The notes under the pieces are model-generated. The model ran no database searches. It saw only the letters and a program-made list of their open reading frames with translations, and was not told the DNA's origin. DNA of 22,048 bases from a virus, in the IMG/VR virus record IMGVR_UViG_3300029989_000166, positions 1-22,048 of that record; one strand, written 5' to 3'. The stretch's first letter is position 1; every line of letters starts with the position of its first letter. The position numbers were made by a program, and so were the translations under genes. Below are positions 10,351 to 18,067 of this stretch, piece by piece.

Positions 10351-13300
10351 TTATCCCCTGCTTCGGGTTCCTTTAGTATTATTATTAATTGCTGTTAGTT
10401 CATCTTTCAATTCTTTAATTGAATCGCTAAGGCCATCTGTATTATCGGCTGATCTTTTCGTATTAAGCTCTATCTTACGAGTATTTTCCATAATTACTCC
10501 AACCGAAGCGCTTATATCAACCGTTTTGGCCTGATCCACTTTATTGCCATACAAAAGCCATTCTTTGATCGAACGAATATCGAGCGAAGTCATCGTCCAA
10601 AGTCCAACAAGCTGTGAAGCTGTTGCCTCGGTAGTAGCTGCAGAAAGTTGTCCGGTTACGCCTGATTTTTTCGAATCTTCCAAATACGGGTCGAGTGCGT
10701 TTTTATATTGAGCCGCTTTGGCGTCGAGTGCGTTGGTAAGTACGTCAATAGCTGCCTGCTCTGATTGGGAGATAGTGCCATCTTCCATGGCCGAAGCTAT
10801 GGAGTTCATAATTCCGGTAACTTCCGGTTGAAGCTTATTTTTAAGTTGATCTATCAAAGCGGTTTTTATCCAACCTCTTACAACTTCAAATGATTTCTTT
10901 GCCTGATCTTCTCCACTACTCCACACATCTGCATAAGCATTGGCGAGTGAGTCAATAGCAGACATTACATCGGTACCGGTTAGTGCTTCGATATACGAAT
11001 CTTTTAGCTCCTCAATCTTTTTCTTATTTGCATCGATTGTATCCTCGTAATTAGCAATTGCTCCACTATCCACTTTTTTCTTTGAATTCTCAGCAGTGAT
11101 TTGTTTTGCAATTGCCTCGTTTTGAGCTTTCAGATTTTCCATTTCGGAAGTTACCAACTGAGCCTTTGTTGTCGAAAATGCTTTAGTGATTGAATCCTCC
11201 AAATCATCATACGATTTCTTCAGCGAATCGATAAGCCCCTGTTGTTTCTTAATCTCCTTTTCAGCCGCCTTTGTTTTTGAGTCGAAAAGTTTAAACCCAT
11301 TGACAAGCATATCAACAGAACCCTGAATAATTTGCATAGGATTTCCCGAAGCAATACCCATGGCAAGGGTGGCAGCTCCGCCAACCATTCCCATCACTTC
11401 ATCAGCCGTTTTTTTCTGATCGTCGGTAAGCATACCTAAATCACTCAACCCACCAACAACAGATCCGAGTATCTGCTGAACACCATTCAAAGCAGCACCG
11501 GCAGCGCCAGCCATCGAAGCGGTAGCACTTGCAGCCTCAGTTTCTAGTTTTGCTAAATCGGCTGTTGATGTTTTAGGGTCAAGTTGTCCCGCTTTTAAAG
11601 CTGCGCCGGCTTTTGTATTACCCGAAATAGCATTACCAAGTTGGGCAAATGGATTATTTTGGTTTTTATTTCCGGCAACAGTCGTTTGAGCTGAATTAAT
11701 ATCAGCAAGCATTTTCTTTGCAGTTTCAGAAGACAGTTTTCCGGCAGCTTCTTCGGCTACTATCCTGGCCTTGATATCAGCAATAAGTTTTTCTGTAGTT
11801 TCTTTCGAAGCCTGTAGTTTATCATTGGTAGCAGCTTTGTAAAGGTCAGTTTCTTGAATTTTAGCGGCTGTAAGTTCGCTTATTTTTTTGTCGCGTTCCA
11901 TCGTGGCAATCCCGGCAGCAGCTAGTTCTCCACTCTGCACTAGTTTTACAATATCTTCGTTGTAATTAGTTTCAACCTTTACACGCTCATCGGCATACTG
12001 CAAAGCGATTTTAGCCATTTCTTCACCCCATAATCTTGTGGCTTCGGCTTTCTTTTCGCCATAGGCGTTTACTATATTAAGTTCGGCAGCACCTAGTTTA
12101 GACCCTAATTCATGCTTAGGGTCTATCGTGTTAAGCGATGATTTAATATCACCCGAATCAGTAGAAAGGGGTTTAAAATTCTTATCACCACGGTGAGCTT
12201 TGTTATACGCATCAATTATTGAAACCTCTTTATCAGTGACTTTTTGTACCTCTTCGTTTTTTTCAAGCTCAATTTGTGCAAGTCGTGTTTGAAGATTATC
12301 TTCCGAATTTTTAAGCAGAAGATTGGCTGTTTGGTTTTGTAAATCCAACAATAAACCCTGTAAGTCTTGTTTAGCATTGTACTCTCCGTCTCCCTCTCTT
12401 TGAGCTTGCCTTTCGGCAGCAATGCGTGCTTTCTTCTCAGCAGCTAAACGTGCTTTAAGTTGAGCCGGAGTTTCTGAAACAGTAGGTTTTTCTTTTACTA
12501 CCGATTGAGTAGTAGCAGATCCAAATTTTACTTCAGCGTCTTTCTGAACTTCTGTAAATAGTCCTTTTGCTTGCTTTGCCTTTCCAAGTAGATTCTTTAG
12601 TTCATTATCCACATAAGTAGTAGTTCCACCAAACTGACCTTGTTGTTGATAAACTGTTTCGTCAAATAATTTCAGAAATGATTCTTTTACTGATCCACCA
12701 TTTTGAATTACGCCCTTAATTTGAGCTAAAAGTTCCAATGATTGTTTGCTGTCTTTCCCAAATTTAGCATCAATAAGAGCTTTTACTTTTGCGGTAACGT
12801 CTCCTTGTGTTTTTGCCAAATCATTTGAAGCGTCAGCCGTAGCCGTTGTCATAGCTCGTGCTCGTGCTGACTTTATTATTTCCTCGGTAATGGTTCGCTG
12901 AGCAAGTGCAACGTTATTCAACGCCGTTTTTTCATCGCCTAAGCCTTTCAGATATTGGCCGTATTGCGACATAATAGCATCCTTGGCACTCTTATACTCC
13001 TCAGTGCCTTTTTTAGCCGCTTTGAGCCTAGCAAATAGAGTATCGACCTGTATTACCTCCCCACGGATAGACGTTTCTGTATTTTGAGCCGTTTCGTTTA
13101 GTTTTTCGTGGGCTTTTTGTGCTTCTGTTGTACGAGTAGCTAAATAATAAATTCCTCCGGCCAATGCAGCTATCGCAACTGCAGCAGCAACGTAAGGGTT
13201 AGTAAGCATTGTTTTGTTGAGTAAACTTTGAGCAGCTGTACGAACTTCCAATGCTGATATTTCGGCAATTTCGGAGGCGGTAAGCGTTACGTTTGCAGCA

Positions 13301-14229
13301 ATAAGGCCACCATTAGCAGCAACGGCCAACGCTTTGTTGGCAATGCTTACCTGTTCGGCTACATTGGCAATGATAAGCCCGGCTCTGTACGCTCCATAAG
13401 TACCAACTAGGCCAATAATTACTTTACCTACTGTTTCGTAGTTCTCAATGAGTAATGAACCCATACCTACAGCATCATAAAGTACACCTTTGTTAGCTGT
13501 ACCCATTTCGTTATACATCATTGCTAGTTTATCCTCAAGGTTAGAAATCTCACCTGTGAGGCTTTCGGATATTTTCGCATTTGCTCCGGTAACACCTTTC
13601 AAGTCACCAAGAGAAAGGATATACTTTTGAATTGCTGAGTTGGTGTTATCAACTGTAGTTTGTTGTTCTTTGAACGAGAATGTAACTTTATCACCATTGG
13701 CCGATGCTTTGATACCAAACTCTTTCAATCGTTCGAACTGTCCGGTTTGTGCGTCGAGAAGCGCTTCTGCAAGTTGGTCGAATGATTTACCGGTGGAGCT
13801 GGCAAGGTCGCCAAGTTTTACAAGTTCTTCACGAGTTGGAACAAAGCCCTGGTTAGCCATTTTTATAAAGGCAGCTGTCACCTCATCCAATTGAAATGGA
13901 GTTGTAGCAGCAAACTGAGCTATCATGTCAAGCGCATCGTTTCCGGCATCGTTTCCAAGCGTATTGCGAAGTACGATTCCGAACTTCTCAAACTTGGCTG
14001 TAGTATCAAGAATATCCTTTCCTAGCATACCGAGCGCAGCGGTACCACCAATAGCACCGAGCGCAGTACCTACACCGACAAAACTATCTTTCATTTTATC
14101 GCCCTCTTTAACGGCATCTGTGCTAAAGCTCTTGATTATATTTGAGGCTTCTTTTGCGTCATTTCGTAGCCCGGAATTGTCTATTCCACTGGCGAAAAAC
14201 AATGCTCCATCTTGATTTTGTATACCCAT
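10351..14229 (-). CDS. Tail tape measure protein
   Basis: The 1292-residue protein sets tail length and probably takes part in DNA ejection. Residues about 45-240 match the tape-measure N-terminal domain, including FGIVLRNTLGND, AATTPFQLDEVTAAFIKMAN and FDQLAEALLDAQTGQFERLK. Hydrophobic segments lie near 265-295 and 345-365 (VAAAVAIAALAGGIYYL). Long Lys/Ala/Glu-rich coiled-coil stretches fill 370-830 and 1000-1110. Another hydrophobic patch lies near 915-985. At about 0.15 nm per residue the tail would be near 190 nm. A strong terminator lies just upstream, so it probably has its own promoter (TATATTTTA at 14254-14246). Confidence 0.92.
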   Translation of the reverse strand: MGIQNQDGALFFASGIDNSGLRNDAKEASNIIKSFSTDAVKEGDKMKDSFVGVGTALGAIGGTAALGMLGKDILDTTAKFEKFGIVLRNTLGNDAGNDALDMIAQFAATTPFQLDEVTAAFIKMANQGFVPTREELVKLGDLASSTGKSFDQLAEALLDAQTGQFERLKEFGIKASANGDKVTFSFKEQQTTVDNTNSAIQKYILSLGDLKGVTGANAKISESLTGEISNLEDKLAMMYNEMGTANKGVLYDAVGMGSLLIENYETVGKVIIGLVGTYGAYRAGLIIANVAEQVSIANKALAVAANGGLIAANVTLTASEIAEISALEVRTAAQSLLNKTMLTNPYVAAAVAIAALAGGIYYLATRTTEAQKAHEKLNETAQNTETSIRGEVIQVDTLFARLKAAKKGTEEYKSAKDAIMSQYGQYLKGLGDEKTALNNVALAQRTITEEIIKSARARAMTTATADASNDLAKTQGDVTAKVKALIDAKFGKDSKQSLELLAQIKGVIQNGGSVKESFLKLFDETVYQQQGQFGGTTTYVDNELKNLLGKAKQAKGLFTEVQKDAEVKFGSATTQSVVKEKPTVSETPAQLKARLAAEKKARIAAERQAQREGDGEYNAKQDLQGLLLDLQNQTANLLLKNSEDNLQTRLAQIELEKNEEVQKVTDKEVSIIDAYNKAHRGDKNFKPLSTDSGDIKSSLNTIDPKHELGSKLGAAELNIVNAYGEKKAEATRLWGEEMAKIALQYADERVKVETNYNEDIVKLVQSGELAAAGIATMERDKKISELTAAKIQETDLYKAATNDKLQASKETTEKLIADIKARIVAEEAAGKLSSETAKKMLADINSAQTTVAGNKNQNNPFAQLGNAISGNTKAGAALKAGQLDPKTSTADLAKLETEAASATASMAGAAGAALNGVQQILGSVVGGLSDLGMLTDDQKKTADEVMGMVGGAATLAMGIASGNPMQIIQGSVDMLVNGFKLFDSKTKAAEKEIKKQQGLIDSLKKSYDDLEDSITKAFSTTKAQLVTSEMENLKAQNEAIAKQITAENSKKKVDSGAIANYEDTIDANKKKIEELKDSYIEALTGTDVMSAIDSLANAYADVWSSGEDQAKKSFEVVRGWIKTALIDQLKNKLQPEVTGIMNSIASAMEDGTISQSEQAAIDVLTNALDAKAAQYKNALDPYLEDSKKSGVTGQLSAATTEATASQLVGLWTMTSLDIRSIKEWLLYGNKVDQAKTVDISASVGVIMENTRKIELNTKRSADNTDGLSDSIKELKDELTAINNNTKGTRSRG

Positions 14230-14254: not shown

Positions 14255-14305
14255 ATTGCACAAAAAAAGTCCTCGTTTCACAACGAAGACTTTTTTTGTG
14301 CAATT
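14254..14305. terminator. Very long hairpin terminator before the tape measure gene
   Basis: The left arm 14254-14277 and right arm 14282-14305 pair over 18 bp (AATTGCAC, then A7/T7, then GTC/GAC), one C/A mismatch at 14272/14287, and 5 more bp (TCGTT/AACGA), closed by a TCAC loop. The A7/T7 tracts inside the stem supply the U-tract for either strand. It lies 19 nt beyond the stop of the exported-protein gene and isolates that unit from the tape measure gene. Confidence 0.85.
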
Positions 14306-14323: not shown

Positions 14324-14701
14324 TCACACATCATTTTTGACAAAATCATCATTCAAATAACCACTAATTTTATATCGTATCGGCTTACCGTAATCATTCA
14401 ATGATAGAATACTGTATTTGTTTAAGCCAATTTTACTGTAACTACATAAACCATAATCAGGGTTTCGATAGGCATCGACAAAGGCAATTTTTTGCACAAT
14501 AAGCTTTTCGAATGGCATGATATCGGTCTGTACTTGCACTACCTGAGTAGTAAGGTTAGAAACGATAGCGTTTGCCTGAATTTGGTAATCATGTTGCTGT
14601 ACTCCGAAAATCTGCAACTGGTCTGTTTGGTGGTAAGTACCACTCGCATTCGTAGCCATGAATCCAATCAGCGCTACGCAAATCAATAAAAATCTTTTCA
14701 T
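14324..14701 (-). CDS. Small exported protein of unknown function
   Basis: The 125-residue product has a clear signal peptide: MKR, a hydrophobic core, and ATNASG with likely cleavage near residues 19-21. It lacks a lipobox, so it should be periplasmic or secreted. The mature part is polar with a single Cys in LCSYSK; I recognise no family. It follows the unusual tRNA gene, has a putative promoter about 50 nt upstream (14754-14762), and ends at a strong terminator. A separately transcribed small secreted protein inside a late block fits a moron or an accessory lysis factor; the sequence does not tell which. Confidence 0.6.
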   Translation of the reverse strand: MKRFLLICVALIGFMATNASGTYHQTDQLQIFGVQQHDYQIQANAIVSNLTTQVVQVQTDIMPFEKLIVQKIAFVDAYRNPDYGLCSYSKIGLNKYSILSLNDYGKPIRYKISGYLNDDFVKNDV

Positions 14702-14910: not shown

Positions 14911-15017
14911 AGCCTCTTAACGGATTCGAACCGCCGACCTACTCAATGATGATACAAGGGCATTTTATGCAGATTGTACCGCTCATTGAATTGCTCTACC
15001 AACTGAGCTAAAAAGGC
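14911..15017 (-). tRNA. tRNA-like gene with a 34-nt enlarged anticodon arm; no usable anticodon loop
   Basis: All parts outside the anticodon arm are canonical: acceptor GCCTTTT/AAGAGGC with one wobble, TA at 8-9, D-arm GCTC AGTTGGTA GAGC, variable loop AGGTC, T-stem GGCGG/CCGTT with loop TTCGAAT, and discriminator T; CCA is not encoded. The total is 107 nt, exactly 34 more than a 73-nt tRNA. The anticodon arm is 51 nt instead of 17. ATTCAATGA pairs with TCATTGAGT (9 bp, one wobble), then come an internal GC/A loop, 7 bp of GGTACAA/TTGTATC, and a 16-nt apical region with a possible GCAT/ATGC. So positions 27-43 form one long hairpin and no 7-nt decoding loop is present. The string CTTGTA in the 3' arm might be a relic of a Thr(TGT) loop, but it does not fold as one. 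It lies 33 nt after the cassette 2 spanin-like gene. Confidence 0.6.
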
Positions 15018-15026
15018 AACTACAAA

Positions 15027-15036
15027 TAAAAATATA
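15027..15036 (-). promoter_or_regulatory. Putative promoter element for the tRNA-like gene
   Basis: TATATTTTTA on the minus strand, a one-base variant of the TATATTTTA motif, ends 9 nt before the predicted 5' end of the tRNA. This is the distance expected of a -7/-10 box. It lies inside the 33-nt gap after the preceding gene, so the RNA may have its own start as well as read-through from cassette 2. Confidence 0.3.
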
Positions 15037-15050
15037 AATCAAAAACACGT

Positions 15051-15722
15051 TTACTTCATTATCAAAATAGCACCGACCGCACCAACTACACCATACACCC
15101 ACTTCTCAGCCTTTTTGAAGATGCTTTCTTTCTTGTTGAGAGCTTTATTTTGTACGGCAATAGTATTATCCTTTGTAGCAATCAATCGCACTTTACTCGC
15201 GATAATGGTATCTTTAATTACAATTTGCTGCTCACCCAAGTACAATCGCCGGCTGTAGCTTTCTGCCTCAATGTTTAGATTTAGATTTGTGCTGTCAAGT
15301 GCAACATTTTCAGACCTTAGCGAATCATTAGCTTGCCTGTATGCATCTAAAAACGGTTTGCAATCTTCACCAGCGTACTGTGCCAAGCTGTCAGCTCTAT
15401 TTTTCTGTTTAGTCGCAGAAATTCCACGCTTATTTGCGATTTGCTCCCAATACACTGCACTGGTTCGTGCGGCAACTGTTTTCTTTGCCTCTTGGGCTTT
15501 CACGCTGTCAATCTCAGCGTTTTTCTTCCAAAGTTCAGCCGTTTGTACAGAATCAACTATAGAAGCTCTGAAATCGGCTGCAATGGCGTTATCTACTTTT
15601 GCCGTTACTTTGGCTTTAGAGCAACTATCCATGTGAATAGTGCCGAATCCAATTGCAAATGCAATTACGAATAGTGCGCCAATAATTATTTTTGTCTTGT
15701 AGGCGTTGAATAAATTCTTCAT
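15051..15722 (-). CDS. Spanin-like coiled-coil membrane protein of lysis cassette 2
   Basis: The 223-residue product has an N-terminal transmembrane helix (about 11-29). A long Ala/Lys/Asp-rich helical region follows (about 40-205), with heptad-like spacing and recurrent NDSLRSEN and IVIKDTIIASK-type segments. A second hydrophobic helix lies at the very C-terminus (VYGVVGAVGAILIM, about 209-222). An inner-membrane-anchored periplasmic coiled coil after holin and endolysin suggests an i-spanin-type role, by topology and context only. The C-terminal helix is unlike a classical i-spanin and could let it span both membranes as a u-spanin-like protein, or tether both ends to one membrane. It shares no clear sequence with the cassette 1 counterpart at 437-1057. 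Confidence 0.55.
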   Translation of the reverse strand: MKNLFNAYKTKIIIGALFVIAFAIGFGTIHMDSCSKAKVTAKVDNAIAADFRASIVDSVQTAELWKKNAEIDSVKAQEAKKTVAARTSAVYWEQIANKRGISATKQKNRADSLAQYAGEDCKPFLDAYRQANDSLRSENVALDSTNLNLNIEAESYSRRLYLGEQQIVIKDTIIASKVRLIATKDNTIAVQNKALNKKESIFKKAEKWVYGVVGAVGAILIMK

Positions 15723-15724
15723 GA

Positions 15725-15859
15725 TTATTTATCTTTTAAAAATTCAGTAACTAAATCAATTGCTTTCCCGATCTCTTTAGGGTCAGGATGTTCCATTTCA
15801 GCGCCACGTCTCCAATTATTGTAATTAATCAGTATTTCTCTGGCTTGTTGAATTGTCAT
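15725..15859 (-). CDS. 44-residue conserved-looking small protein
   Basis: ATG at 15859-15857 overlaps the amidase stop as ATGA, giving an open frame to TAA at 15727-15725. The protein begins MTIQQAREILINYNNWRRG and ends AIDLVTEFLKDK, with EHPDPKEIG between. A short helix, the NxWRRG motif, a proline/acidic link to xEIGxAID, then a second helix is a pattern that I associate with small proteins of Bacteroidota phages. Function is unknown. The start/stop coupling, and a stop only 2 nt before the next gene's ATG, argue strongly that it is real. Confidence 0.7.
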   Translation of the reverse strand: MTIQQAREILINYNNWRRGAEMEHPDPKEIGKAIDLVTEFLKDK

Positions 15860-16512
15860 ACGTTCAAATTTTTAAGCAGTTTTACAATACGTTCGTCAGG
15901 ATAAAGATCCGATTTATCAGCTCTAAAGTTGGAATGAGAATATACGCCAGAAATACCTTGCAATGCATCAAAACTAACATCGAAATTGCCGTCCTTAAGT
16001 CCATTATTTTCAATGCCGTTAGCTTTCATGAGAATAGGAAGCAACTCGGCTAATGCTTGAATTTGAGCAAACGAATAGCGTTGAAAGTATTTAAACCCTC
16101 TCCAATTGCATTTCACCACTTCAAGTGTGTTGCTGATCGGTTTTCCGTAGGCATTGAAATACACACCGTCCTTTTCGGTAAGCCCGCCCCAACAATCCAA
16201 TTCAATACCAATCGAATGCTTATTAAGTAGCAGATTACGTTCTGCAAAATCCTCAAATTTCATTTTCTTCAAATCGGCTTCTTTTACGCCAAGGTGATGC
16301 GCCCATTGATTTGATGGAAAGCACTTGTTTATAGTTCCGTCAATGCCAATTATAGCATAGGTAGCAATGCGAGCTGTATCTGATTTCCACGAGTCCATAT
16401 CACCAATGGCCGACTCCGGGTTACTTACAGTATGGTGCAATACGATTTGATTTTTTACCTCAACTACTGGGTAGTACTGACTTTTGTCAATAGGTGTTTC
16501 TTTGATTTTCAT
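15856..16512 (-). CDS. N-acetylmuramoyl-L-alanine amidase, Amidase_2 family (endolysin of cassette 2)
   Basis: The 218-residue T7-lysozyme-type zinc amidase has the strand IVLHHTVS with zinc ligand His26 (His27 adjacent), then SDTARIATYAIIGIDGTI, QWAHHLG and IGIELDCWG with Glu104. The closing YSHSNFRADKSDLYPD supplies His193 and probably Asp202, with Lys200 near the active site. It cuts the same bond as the 1284-1883 amidase but belongs to an unrelated fold family. A 15-residue upstream extension is open, but I chose the ATG at 16512: it sits 2 nt after the preceding stop and starts the conserved MKIKETPID. No signal peptide is seen, in keeping with holin-dependent release. Confidence 0.9.
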   Translation of the reverse strand: MKIKETPIDKSQYYPVVEVKNQIVLHHTVSNPESAIGDMDSWKSDTARIATYAIIGIDGTINKCFPSNQWAHHLGVKEADLKKMKFEDFAERNLLLNKHSIGIELDCWGGLTEKDGVYFNAYGKPISNTLEVVKCNWRGFKYFQRYSFAQIQALAELLPILMKANGIENNGLKDGNFDVSFDALQGISGVYSHSNFRADKSDLYPDERIVKLLKNLNV

Positions 16513-16514
16513 GA

Positions 16515-16739
16515 TTATTCTTTGGTTAGTTTGGCAGTTCCGGCTATTGCTACACACGCTGCAACGACATAGCCAAGTACACTGATTAGGGTTTGATTGA
16601 GGTTGAGCGACATGGTGCCGTTAGTGACAAGTACTGCAGCAGCAGAACCCCCAACCGAAAGCGCATAGTCTTTCAACTTTTTGAAGAAAGCGGGCGATTT
16701 TGCTTTCCAACGTTCTATAAAAATGTTAGTTTTTTTCAT
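16515..16739 (-). CDS. Small two-TM holin-like protein of lysis cassette 2
   Basis: The 74-residue protein has a basic amphipathic start (MKKTNIFIERWKAKSPAFF, then KKLKDY) and two hydrophobic segments at about 28-42 and 50-68, with a short polar linker and a basic tail. The pattern of basic helix followed by a Gly/Ala-rich TM pair is common beside endolysins in Bacteroidota phages and suggests a holin or antiholin. It overlaps the upstream holin gene by 14 nt and is 2 nt from the amidase start. It mirrors the 77-residue protein of cassette 1 in size and topology. Confidence 0.6.
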   Translation of the reverse strand: MKKTNIFIERWKAKSPAFFKKLKDYALSVGGSAAAVLVTNGTMSLNLNQTLISVLGYVVAACVAIAGTAKLTKE

Positions 16740-17276: not shown

Positions 17277-17795
17277 ATGAGTGTACAATTTCTTTTTCAA
17301 CTGGAAGCCGATACGATTACCGAAAAGCCGGTGCGTATTCCTTTCGATTTTCCCGACAAATCGAGCGTCCCTGAAGGGCAAGTAATCGATGATATTATAA
17401 CTATCAATCCACTAACCACCCGCACATGGTTCGCCATCAAACCGCTGATACTGCGAATTGAAAAAGAAGATTTTGAAGCGTTGCTGGAAGCGGAAGGAAA
17501 GGTTATCCCGGAGTATGATTTAATTCAGCTAATGGCAAAATATGACGAACTACTATTTGATATTATCTGCATTGGCATACACAATAAAAAAACGGATCCA
17601 CCGGCATGGTTTCGGGAAGTGCTGAAAGACAATAGTATTTGGAAGGATATTTATATTTTGCTGAATGCCGTATTGTACCGGGTCGGTTACAACCCTTTTT
17701 ACAACTCTATCACGACATTGAGGAACGTGAGTCCATTGACAGAGCCGGAGTTAATAGCCGCTCAAAAAAACCTCGAAAGCTGGACCAACCAGTAA
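17277..17795 (+). CDS. Tail assembly chaperone, short form (gpG-like)
   Basis: The 172-residue product has the beta-rich start and helical body (EKEDFEALLEAEGKVIPEYD) expected of a tail chaperone that coats the tape measure protein before tube polymerisation. Identification rests on size, a following out-of-frame ORF reachable by a -1 slip, and position between tail tube and tape measure genes. The heptamer A AAA AAC lies 7 codons before the stop codon. Unlike its neighbours it is on the plus strand, with its own promoter-like element and a shared terminator at 18067-18103. Confidence is high that the G/GT pair is real, moderate that its role is the classical one. Confidence 0.75.
   Translation: MSVQFLFQLEADTITEKPVRIPFDFPDKSSVPEGQVIDDIITINPLTTRTWFAIKPLILRIEKEDFEALLEAEGKVIPEYDLIQLMAKYDELLFDIICIGIHNKKTDPPAWFREVLKDNSIWKDIYILLNAVLYRVGYNPFYNSITTLRNVSPLTEPELIAAQKNLESWTNQ
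17765..17792 (+). promoter_or_regulatory. Programmed -1 ribosomal frameshift site
   Basis: The slippery heptamer A AAA AAC occupies 17765-17771 in the zero frame (codons CAA AAA AAC), the canonical X XXY YYZ form. After an 8-nt spacer a small hairpin CTGG-ACCAA-CCAG (17780-17792, extendable by one G-U pair) could act as stimulator, though it is weak. Slipping back one base places the ribosome in the frame that is open to 18067. Confidence 0.8.
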
Positions 17796-18067
17796 GTATG
17801 TTTATGTTTTTAGTGAACTGTAACGAAGCATTTGGATATACCCATGAACAAACGTTGGATAGCAGTTACTCACTTCTTCAGTGTATGTTGTCAGAATATA
17901 GCTACATGTGGAACGAACGCAATGCCGACACTAATACTGAAAATGGAGAAATAGAAGGCAAAGACTTTGAATGGGTAGAGCTACCCGATTTCAATGATCC
18001 AACCAAAACGAATCGATACAAGAAATACAAAGATGTTGGTGGCCGAATAGGCAATTCCAATAACTAA
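17771..18067 (+). CDS. Tail chaperone T-domain, read by -1 frameshift (gpGT-like fusion)
   Basis: This frame continues the upstream ORF after a -1 slip: 165 zero-frame residues joined to 98 residues starting PRKLDQPVSMFMF, giving a fusion of about 263. The T part has a short helical segment (CNEAFGYTHEQTLDSSYSLL) and an acidic stretch (ENGEIEGKDFEWVELPDF). In phages such as lambda the G domain binds the tape measure and the T domain recruits tail tube subunits, so the minor fusion is essential. An ATG at 17798 could also allow independent initiation of the last 89 residues. The frame is open further upstream only as a shadow of the G gene. Confidence 0.75.
   Translation, partial: PRKLDQPVSMFMFLVNCNEAFGYTHEQTLDSSYSLLQCMLSEYSYMWNERNADTNTENGEIEGKDFEWVELPDFNDPTKTNRYKKYKDVGGRIGNSNN

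Follow-up and report, generated by a model that had tools for sequence, protein, structure and literature searches.

The gene at positions 14911-15017 of the window, i.e., of the entire IMG/VR record of 22,048 bases that was analyzed here, raises the question of what a phage may gain from an RNA that has the body of a tRNA and no place for an anticodon. A first-pass annotation had placed it correctly and considered everything outside the anticodon arm to obey tRNA rules; it did not give the strand, which is the minus strand (15017→14911), as for the parts of the gene and for its neighbors between 14256 and 16557 described below. Covariance search with cmscan assigned the complete stretch to the tRNA family RF00005 (48.8 bits, E = 7e-8, gathering score 29) with the whole model matched and the insert placed in the anticodon loop. 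The acceptor stem is formed by GCCUUUU (15011-15017), all seven positions of which pair with 14912-14918 (one G.U pair), the 3' strand AAGAGGC being followed by discriminator U73 (14911-14918). The D-arm GCUC-AGUUGGUA-GAGC (14993-15008) has four out of four pairs and a canonical D-loop, and the T-arm GGCGG-UUCGAAU-CCGUU (14919-14935) five out of five pairs, two of them G.U, and a canonical T-loop. Just like the acceptor, D and T parts, the variable region is canonical, the elbow nucleotides are intact and the core residues U8, A14, G15, G18G19, A21, C48, U54 and A58 are all present. All 21 tRNA stem pairs are formed (17 Watson-Crick and four G.U), and the predicted cloverleaf of the 107-nt RNA (MFE -35.5 kcal/mol, z = -3.6) was not equaled in stability by any of 200 shuffled sequences. 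The gene ends with U73-CAA, such that CCA is not encoded. Cmscan, fold, stem pairs and core residues thus bear out the tRNA character of the body. With default settings ARAGORN did not call a tRNA at this position; when introns were allowed, it read the gene as a tRNA-Met(CAT) interrupted by 32 nt of intron, which we rejected as an artefact of the sequence CAUCAU.

The anticodon arm comprises 51 instead of the normal 17 nt (14941-14991). In full agreement with the earlier description, the excess amounts to exactly 34 nt: the 5-bp stem AUUCA/UGAGU flanks 41 nt (14946-14986) where a tRNA has its 7-nt anticodon loop. According to the predicted fold (MFE -17.4 kcal/mol), the arm is a single long hairpin consisting of 9 bp, a 2x1 internal loop, 7 bp, a 3x2 internal loop, 4 bp and an AAA loop. 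When the 41-nt segment only was shuffled, equal stability was reached by two of 5000 dinucleotide shuffles (z = -4.1) and four of 5000 mononucleotide shuffles (z = -4.5), so both the fold and the shuffles are in line with the hairpin proposed before. Since 66 of 8800 overlapping 51-nt segments across the window form hairpins of the same stability, a stable hairpin by itself is uncommon, not unique. The unusual feature is a hairpin that continues the anticodon stem exactly and does so within a cloverleaf. A second copy of the palindrome was not found within the window. As had been noted, no 7-nt loop that could present U33 and an anticodon remains, the 41-nt segment being paired into the hairpin in the predicted fold.

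To which isotype the body belongs was derived from a comparison of 66 non-loop positions with those of roughly 65 tRNAs, drawn from Bacteroidota genomes plus a few other sources, a set that was collected with a placeholder-loop query and scored with the loop left out. All 15 best tRNAs were Thr(CGU), agreeing at 54-57 of the 66 positions, followed by lysine and Thr(UGU) (53) and alanine (48). Judged from these similarities, the gene body is of the Bacteroidota tRNA-Thr(CGU) type, with which it has in common G1-C72, C2-G71, C3-G70, A26, U73, the AUUCA-type anticodon stem and the AGGUC variable loop, whereas the loop UUCGUAA of the cellular tRNAs is replaced by the 41 nt lacking a CGU anticodon. 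Compared with each of six host-type relatives, 5-7 stem pairs differ, with both partners exchanged in 3-4 of these and no pair broken, and only 1-2 unpaired positions differ. Intact pairing, two-sided changes and the small number of unpaired differences imply that the body evolved under tRNA constraint. Part of the stem variation is the tRNA-Thr family's own, and it shows evolution as a tRNA, not evolution after loss of the loop. The four G.U pairs, compared with 0-1 in the six host-type relatives, are a possible hint at relaxed selection. Neither lost core residues nor, outside the replaced loop, broken pairs that would speak for a pseudogene were detected.

The phage from which the window stems is a Bacteroidota siphophage, represented by late genes. 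Its major capsid protein (Phage_cap_E) is 66% identical to that of a phage scaffold from human feces and otherwise closest to proteins of Porphyromonas and Riemerella phages; further late genes encode the tape measure protein and two amidases. The latter belong to different families within one and the same fragment (Amidase_3 at 1284-1883 and Amidase_2 at 15856-16557). Between the capsid/tail and the lysis genes, two overlapping open reading frames reside on the plus strand (17277-18067), opposite to most late genes; their overlap resembles, solely by position, that of tail-assembly chaperones expressed by frameshifting.

The location in the lysis gene region, which had been assumed before, is corroborated by the gene order. 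The upstream lysis cassette includes the endolysin (Amidase_2, 15856-16557; PF01510, E = 1e-9; PHROG amidase), the gene of which is followed by one for a protein of 223 residues (15051-15722). This protein begins with a hydrophobic stretch, has a body of coiled-coil-like character, has no match in Pfam or PHROG and may be called spanin-like by position only. A 33-nt leader (15018-15050) extends from the stop of this gene to the tRNA-like gene. Downstream follow an open reading frame for 125 amino acids with a signal-like N-terminus and no family match in Pfam or PHROG (14324-14701) and a strong hairpin resembling an intrinsic terminator (inverted repeat I1, 14256-14303; 20 pairs, T-rich tail). 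Two related contigs, in which the 223-residue protein is 86% and 83% identical, carry an ordinary tRNA-Met(CAU) at the same site, in the order leader, tRNA-Met(CAU), terminator-like hairpin, and alignment with one of the related contigs (L124) proved their leader homologous to the 33 nt in the window. The position is therefore a tRNA slot, the content of which varies between lineages. In three relatives identified via the tape measure gene, neither ARAGORN nor Rfam indicated a tRNA in the stretches examined, and ARAGORN did not detect any in the capsid relative from human feces. A role as attachment site or in tRNA-dependent lysogeny (PMC10865867) was considered and rejected because the gene is complete, resides among late genes and no integrase was seen in the 22 kb.

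With regard to its distribution, the insert has so far been found in one clonal phage population only. Its core 20-mer occurs in just four other IMG/VR contigs, which originate from four metagenomes and all represent the same phage population; the clone thus comprises five contigs including the window, and these are identical at the tRNA-like gene. The only copy differing by more than one base, contig L121, exhibits 124 differences within about 0.9 kb of the tape measure gene (12379-13306) and none elsewhere in 6.6 kb. This replaced segment is a sign of recombination, and with all its differences confined there the contig was rejected as a test for constraint. Beyond the same phage, the palindrome was not encountered in IMG/VR, and the INPHARED phages do not contain homologous DNA. 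Searches of the open-access literature did not turn up any account of inserts of this type. Among the signs by which the first-pass annotation proposed to recognize a pseudogene, homologues with a normal arm exist (the Bacteroidota tRNA-Thr(CGU) and the tRNA-Met that occupies this site in relatives of the phage) and the insert is unique to one population, while for compensatory changes the identical copies offer no differences in the extension that could be compared.

Modified anticodon arms in other phages were sought by a scan of viral sequences for the D-arm and T-arm consensus of tRNAs separated by 46-76 nt, which yielded at least 119 stretches, with 7, 55 and 2 stretches in stricter scans; as the patterns were tuned to one D/T consensus and the classes given below were drawn by eye, this is not a controlled survey. 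Some of the matches are neighboring or truncated tRNAs, and most have matching acceptor stems. Many phages contain tRNA bodies with anticodon-arm inserts of 13-50 nt that are of several kinds, some of which restore the cognate anticodon upon removal. In class A, 37-50 nt comprising a hairpin and a motif similar to ACAGCAA are inserted into the 5' side of the anticodon stem, and their removal restores the stem, U33, purine 37 and mostly one anticodon (UUU, GUU, UGU, UCU, CCU, UAU or UCC). Such loci include L005, L022, L027, L030, L034, L037, L038, L058, L065, L067, L068, L089, L094, L099, L103 and others, and several inserts per phage are present for L073, L082, L094, L097 and L105. By its sequence features, class A gives the impression of short tRNA introns of a type not described before. 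The gene studied here does not fall into it: the ACAGCAA motif is absent, the insert is located in the loop and the anticodon is not restored. In class B (L013, L032, L041, L050, L051, L062, L064, L069, L071, L076, L078, L088, L092 and L104), a conserved fold of the GGUGAAGGACCAAA type, with a 4-5-bp helix and GUAAA, replaces the anticodon arm in combination with different acceptor stems, and an anticodon loop was not found. Class C consists of smaller recurrent folds with different acceptors. Three more recurrent arm replacements were observed, each across different acceptor stems (L114/L120/L273/L282, L256/L259/L260/L263 and L258/L268/L284).

Single extended hairpins, i.e., class D, are found in the window's gene, L048, L070 and L014/L031, and in stability over shuffles the former ranks second or third among the matches listed (z = -4.1 to -4.6). 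The 89-kb record containing L070 (G299) harbors a Gly(GCC) and a Thr(UGU) tRNA (27827-27925 and 74597-74696) with hairpin inserts of 27-28 nt, both at position 36/37 with the cognate anticodon intact. The same region of this record also gave a match resembling RNase P RNA (80.7 bits compared with a gathering score of 100). In the 342-kb record of L014 (G298), a tRNA-Thr with its anticodon loop interrupted by a 42-nt hairpin (70392-70506) accompanies 28 ordinary tRNAs predicted by ARAGORN, none of them for threonine, and is hence the only tRNA-Thr of 29. L070 with its second tRNA and L014/L031 resemble the gene in the window by having one extended hairpin arm with an excess of 27-42 nt and, for L070 and L014/L031, by a relation to threonine, their anticodons being threonine anticodons; they differ in regaining the cognate anticodon upon removal of the insert, which the window's gene does not. 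Rfam recognized nothing but tRNA in a sample of the insert-bearing viral tRNAs. It may be, although we put this forward as a tentative proposal that we on balance doubt, that all these genes belong to a broad, unrecognized set of phage tRNA-like RNAs in which the body is kept and the anticodon arm is exchanged for extended hairpins, conserved small folds or intron-like inserts of 37-50 nt, serving non-decoding functions or subject to an unknown removal pathway.

Cellular genomes were covered by a scan of GTDB (one genome for each of 84,980 species) for tRNAs with a GGC acceptor and a long arm. The matches were mostly archaeal, and tRNA introns are known in archaea. Four bacterial records were retrieved: a Bacteroidales contig in which 43 nt are inserted before CGU (L130), a tRNA from Parcubacteria interrupted by a 23-nt hairpin (L172), a tandem artefact (L151) and L152. 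An insert resembling that of L093 was noted in a member of the Bacteroidota (G014:C1:696529-696619). Among 395 Bacteroidota genomes, the long-gap pattern was present in three (one of them an artefact) and the normal-gap pattern in 290. Insert-bearing tRNAs are thus rare in the Bacteroidota genomes tested.

The occurrence of such inserts in other phages lends some weight to the possibility that the transcript is a tRNA precursor containing a short hairpin intron of an undescribed kind, which an unknown nuclease and ligase would convert into a decoding tRNA: other phage tRNAs with 27-42-nt hairpin inserts in the loop regain their cognate anticodon on removal, and inserts of 37-50 nt within the anticodon stem form a separate and larger family. 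For the gene studied here, we consider it improbable. All contiguous 34-nt excisions that keep U33 and purine 37 would equip the threonine body with AUC, GUC, GAC or GAG, and a threonine anticodon (NGU) neither exists as a loop in the gene nor arises from any single 34-nt excision. A simple intron is therefore disfavored for a threonine tRNA, unless the gene changed isotype. On paper, removal of two parts (28+6 nt) would create CUUGUAU with the threonine anticodon UGU; this was rejected as contrived because T-N-G-T is, by our own estimate, expected by chance about half the time. Comparison with established introns leads in the same direction. Group I introns of bacterial and phage tRNA genes likewise interrupt the anticodon loop, but have a ribozyme core and are mostly longer than 200 nt (PMC8450103), whereas the insert has 34 nt, lacks a group I core and matches no intron family of Rfam at E values up to 1, which upholds the initial judgment that it is too short for this type. 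Archaeal and eukaryotic bulge-helix-bulge introns share with it the position in the anticodon loop and the short, structured nature. Here, however, the gene is that of a bacterial virus, the predicted fold lacks a bulge-helix-bulge at the insert borders, having 2x1 and 3x2 internal loops 7 bp apart, and removal gives no threonine anticodon. In addition, an RtcB ligase was not found in any of the 30 viral records, most of them fragments, in which inserts of this kind were inspected.

The reading to which we lean, while granting it somewhat less than an even chance, is that of a tRNA-Thr-derived, non-decoding RNA that continues to be processed as a tRNA and occupies the tRNA slot of the lysis transcript. 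Behind the lysis genes of this phage, the slot is taken by a tRNA-Thr gene, the loop of which has given way to 41 nt extending the stem to a 20-bp hairpin; the RNA would be co-transcribed with the lysis genes. Given intact acceptor, T and D parts, it could be recognized and excised as a tRNA by RNase P, 3' processing and CCA addition; it should be unable to decode and would probably not be charged by threonyl-tRNA synthetase. If kept for a purpose, it would most likely act as a structured element in the processing or stability of the lysis transcript, a role that does not require the anticodon arm. The role of "processing punctuation" suggested in the first-pass annotation fits the position. 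Against this explanation count the four G.U pairs, the hairpin inserts of other phages that have the look of removable introns, and the fact that no relative of the phage is known to retain such an arm. A rival reading is decay, i.e., a palindromic insertion or replacement that destroyed the loop of a cargo tRNA so recently that the unmaintained RNA still has an intact body. Phages often gain and lose tRNAs, the insert is confined to a single clonal population, the arm is normal in every near relative of the body, a normal tRNA occupies the same slot in related phages, and the excess of G.U pairs points the same way. On the other hand, not a single stem pair of the body is broken, the clone is present in five contigs, and the insert is no fresh perfect palindrome, being interrupted by two internal loops and yet far more stable than expected by chance. 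Plain decay, the dull alternative in the original proposal, is thus weakened by the retention of every body pair and by 3-4 two-sided changes; we retain it as a reading that is rather unlikely.

The two remaining suggestions made at the outset, a decoy for the titration of anticodon nucleases or tRNA-modifying enzymes of the host and an unconventional aminoacyl donor, appear very improbable. Anticodon nucleases and most modifiers of the anticodon loop require this loop, and since none remains to be presented, the decoy is not supported; threonyl-tRNA synthetase relies on anticodon bases, which argues against the donor. A point in favor of the decoy is that phage tRNAs have been proposed to evade tRNA-targeting defenses via mutations in the anticodon loop (PMC10264068). 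Two known kinds of RNA offer partial parallels to the favored non-decoding RNA. Hairpin intervening sequences of bacterial 23S rRNA likewise extend a stem by a palindromic, partly paired insert, while the phage insert resides in a tRNA-like RNA and is without known excision. The tRNA-like module of bacterial Y RNA (YrlA) is also tRNA-shaped without a decoding function; the phage gene differs in having a complete cloverleaf with acceptor stem, and cmscan with Rfam gave no YrlA match to it.

As judged from its sequence, the phage gene probably yields a tRNA-shaped RNA that is unable to read codons. If this RNA is made and stable, it would be a natural tRNA with its decoding end swapped for a long hairpin and would allow asking what phages use tRNA-shaped RNAs for besides decoding. 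On its own, the gene in the window is a curious variant. More striking is the wider set of insert-bearing phage tRNAs to which it leads, with short inserts that are not group I introns and that standard finders miss or misread. At least one insert-bearing tRNA is the only one of its isotype in a tRNA-rich phage, and this raises the question whether a tRNA splicing pathway for inserts of 27-50 nt exists in bacteria or phages.
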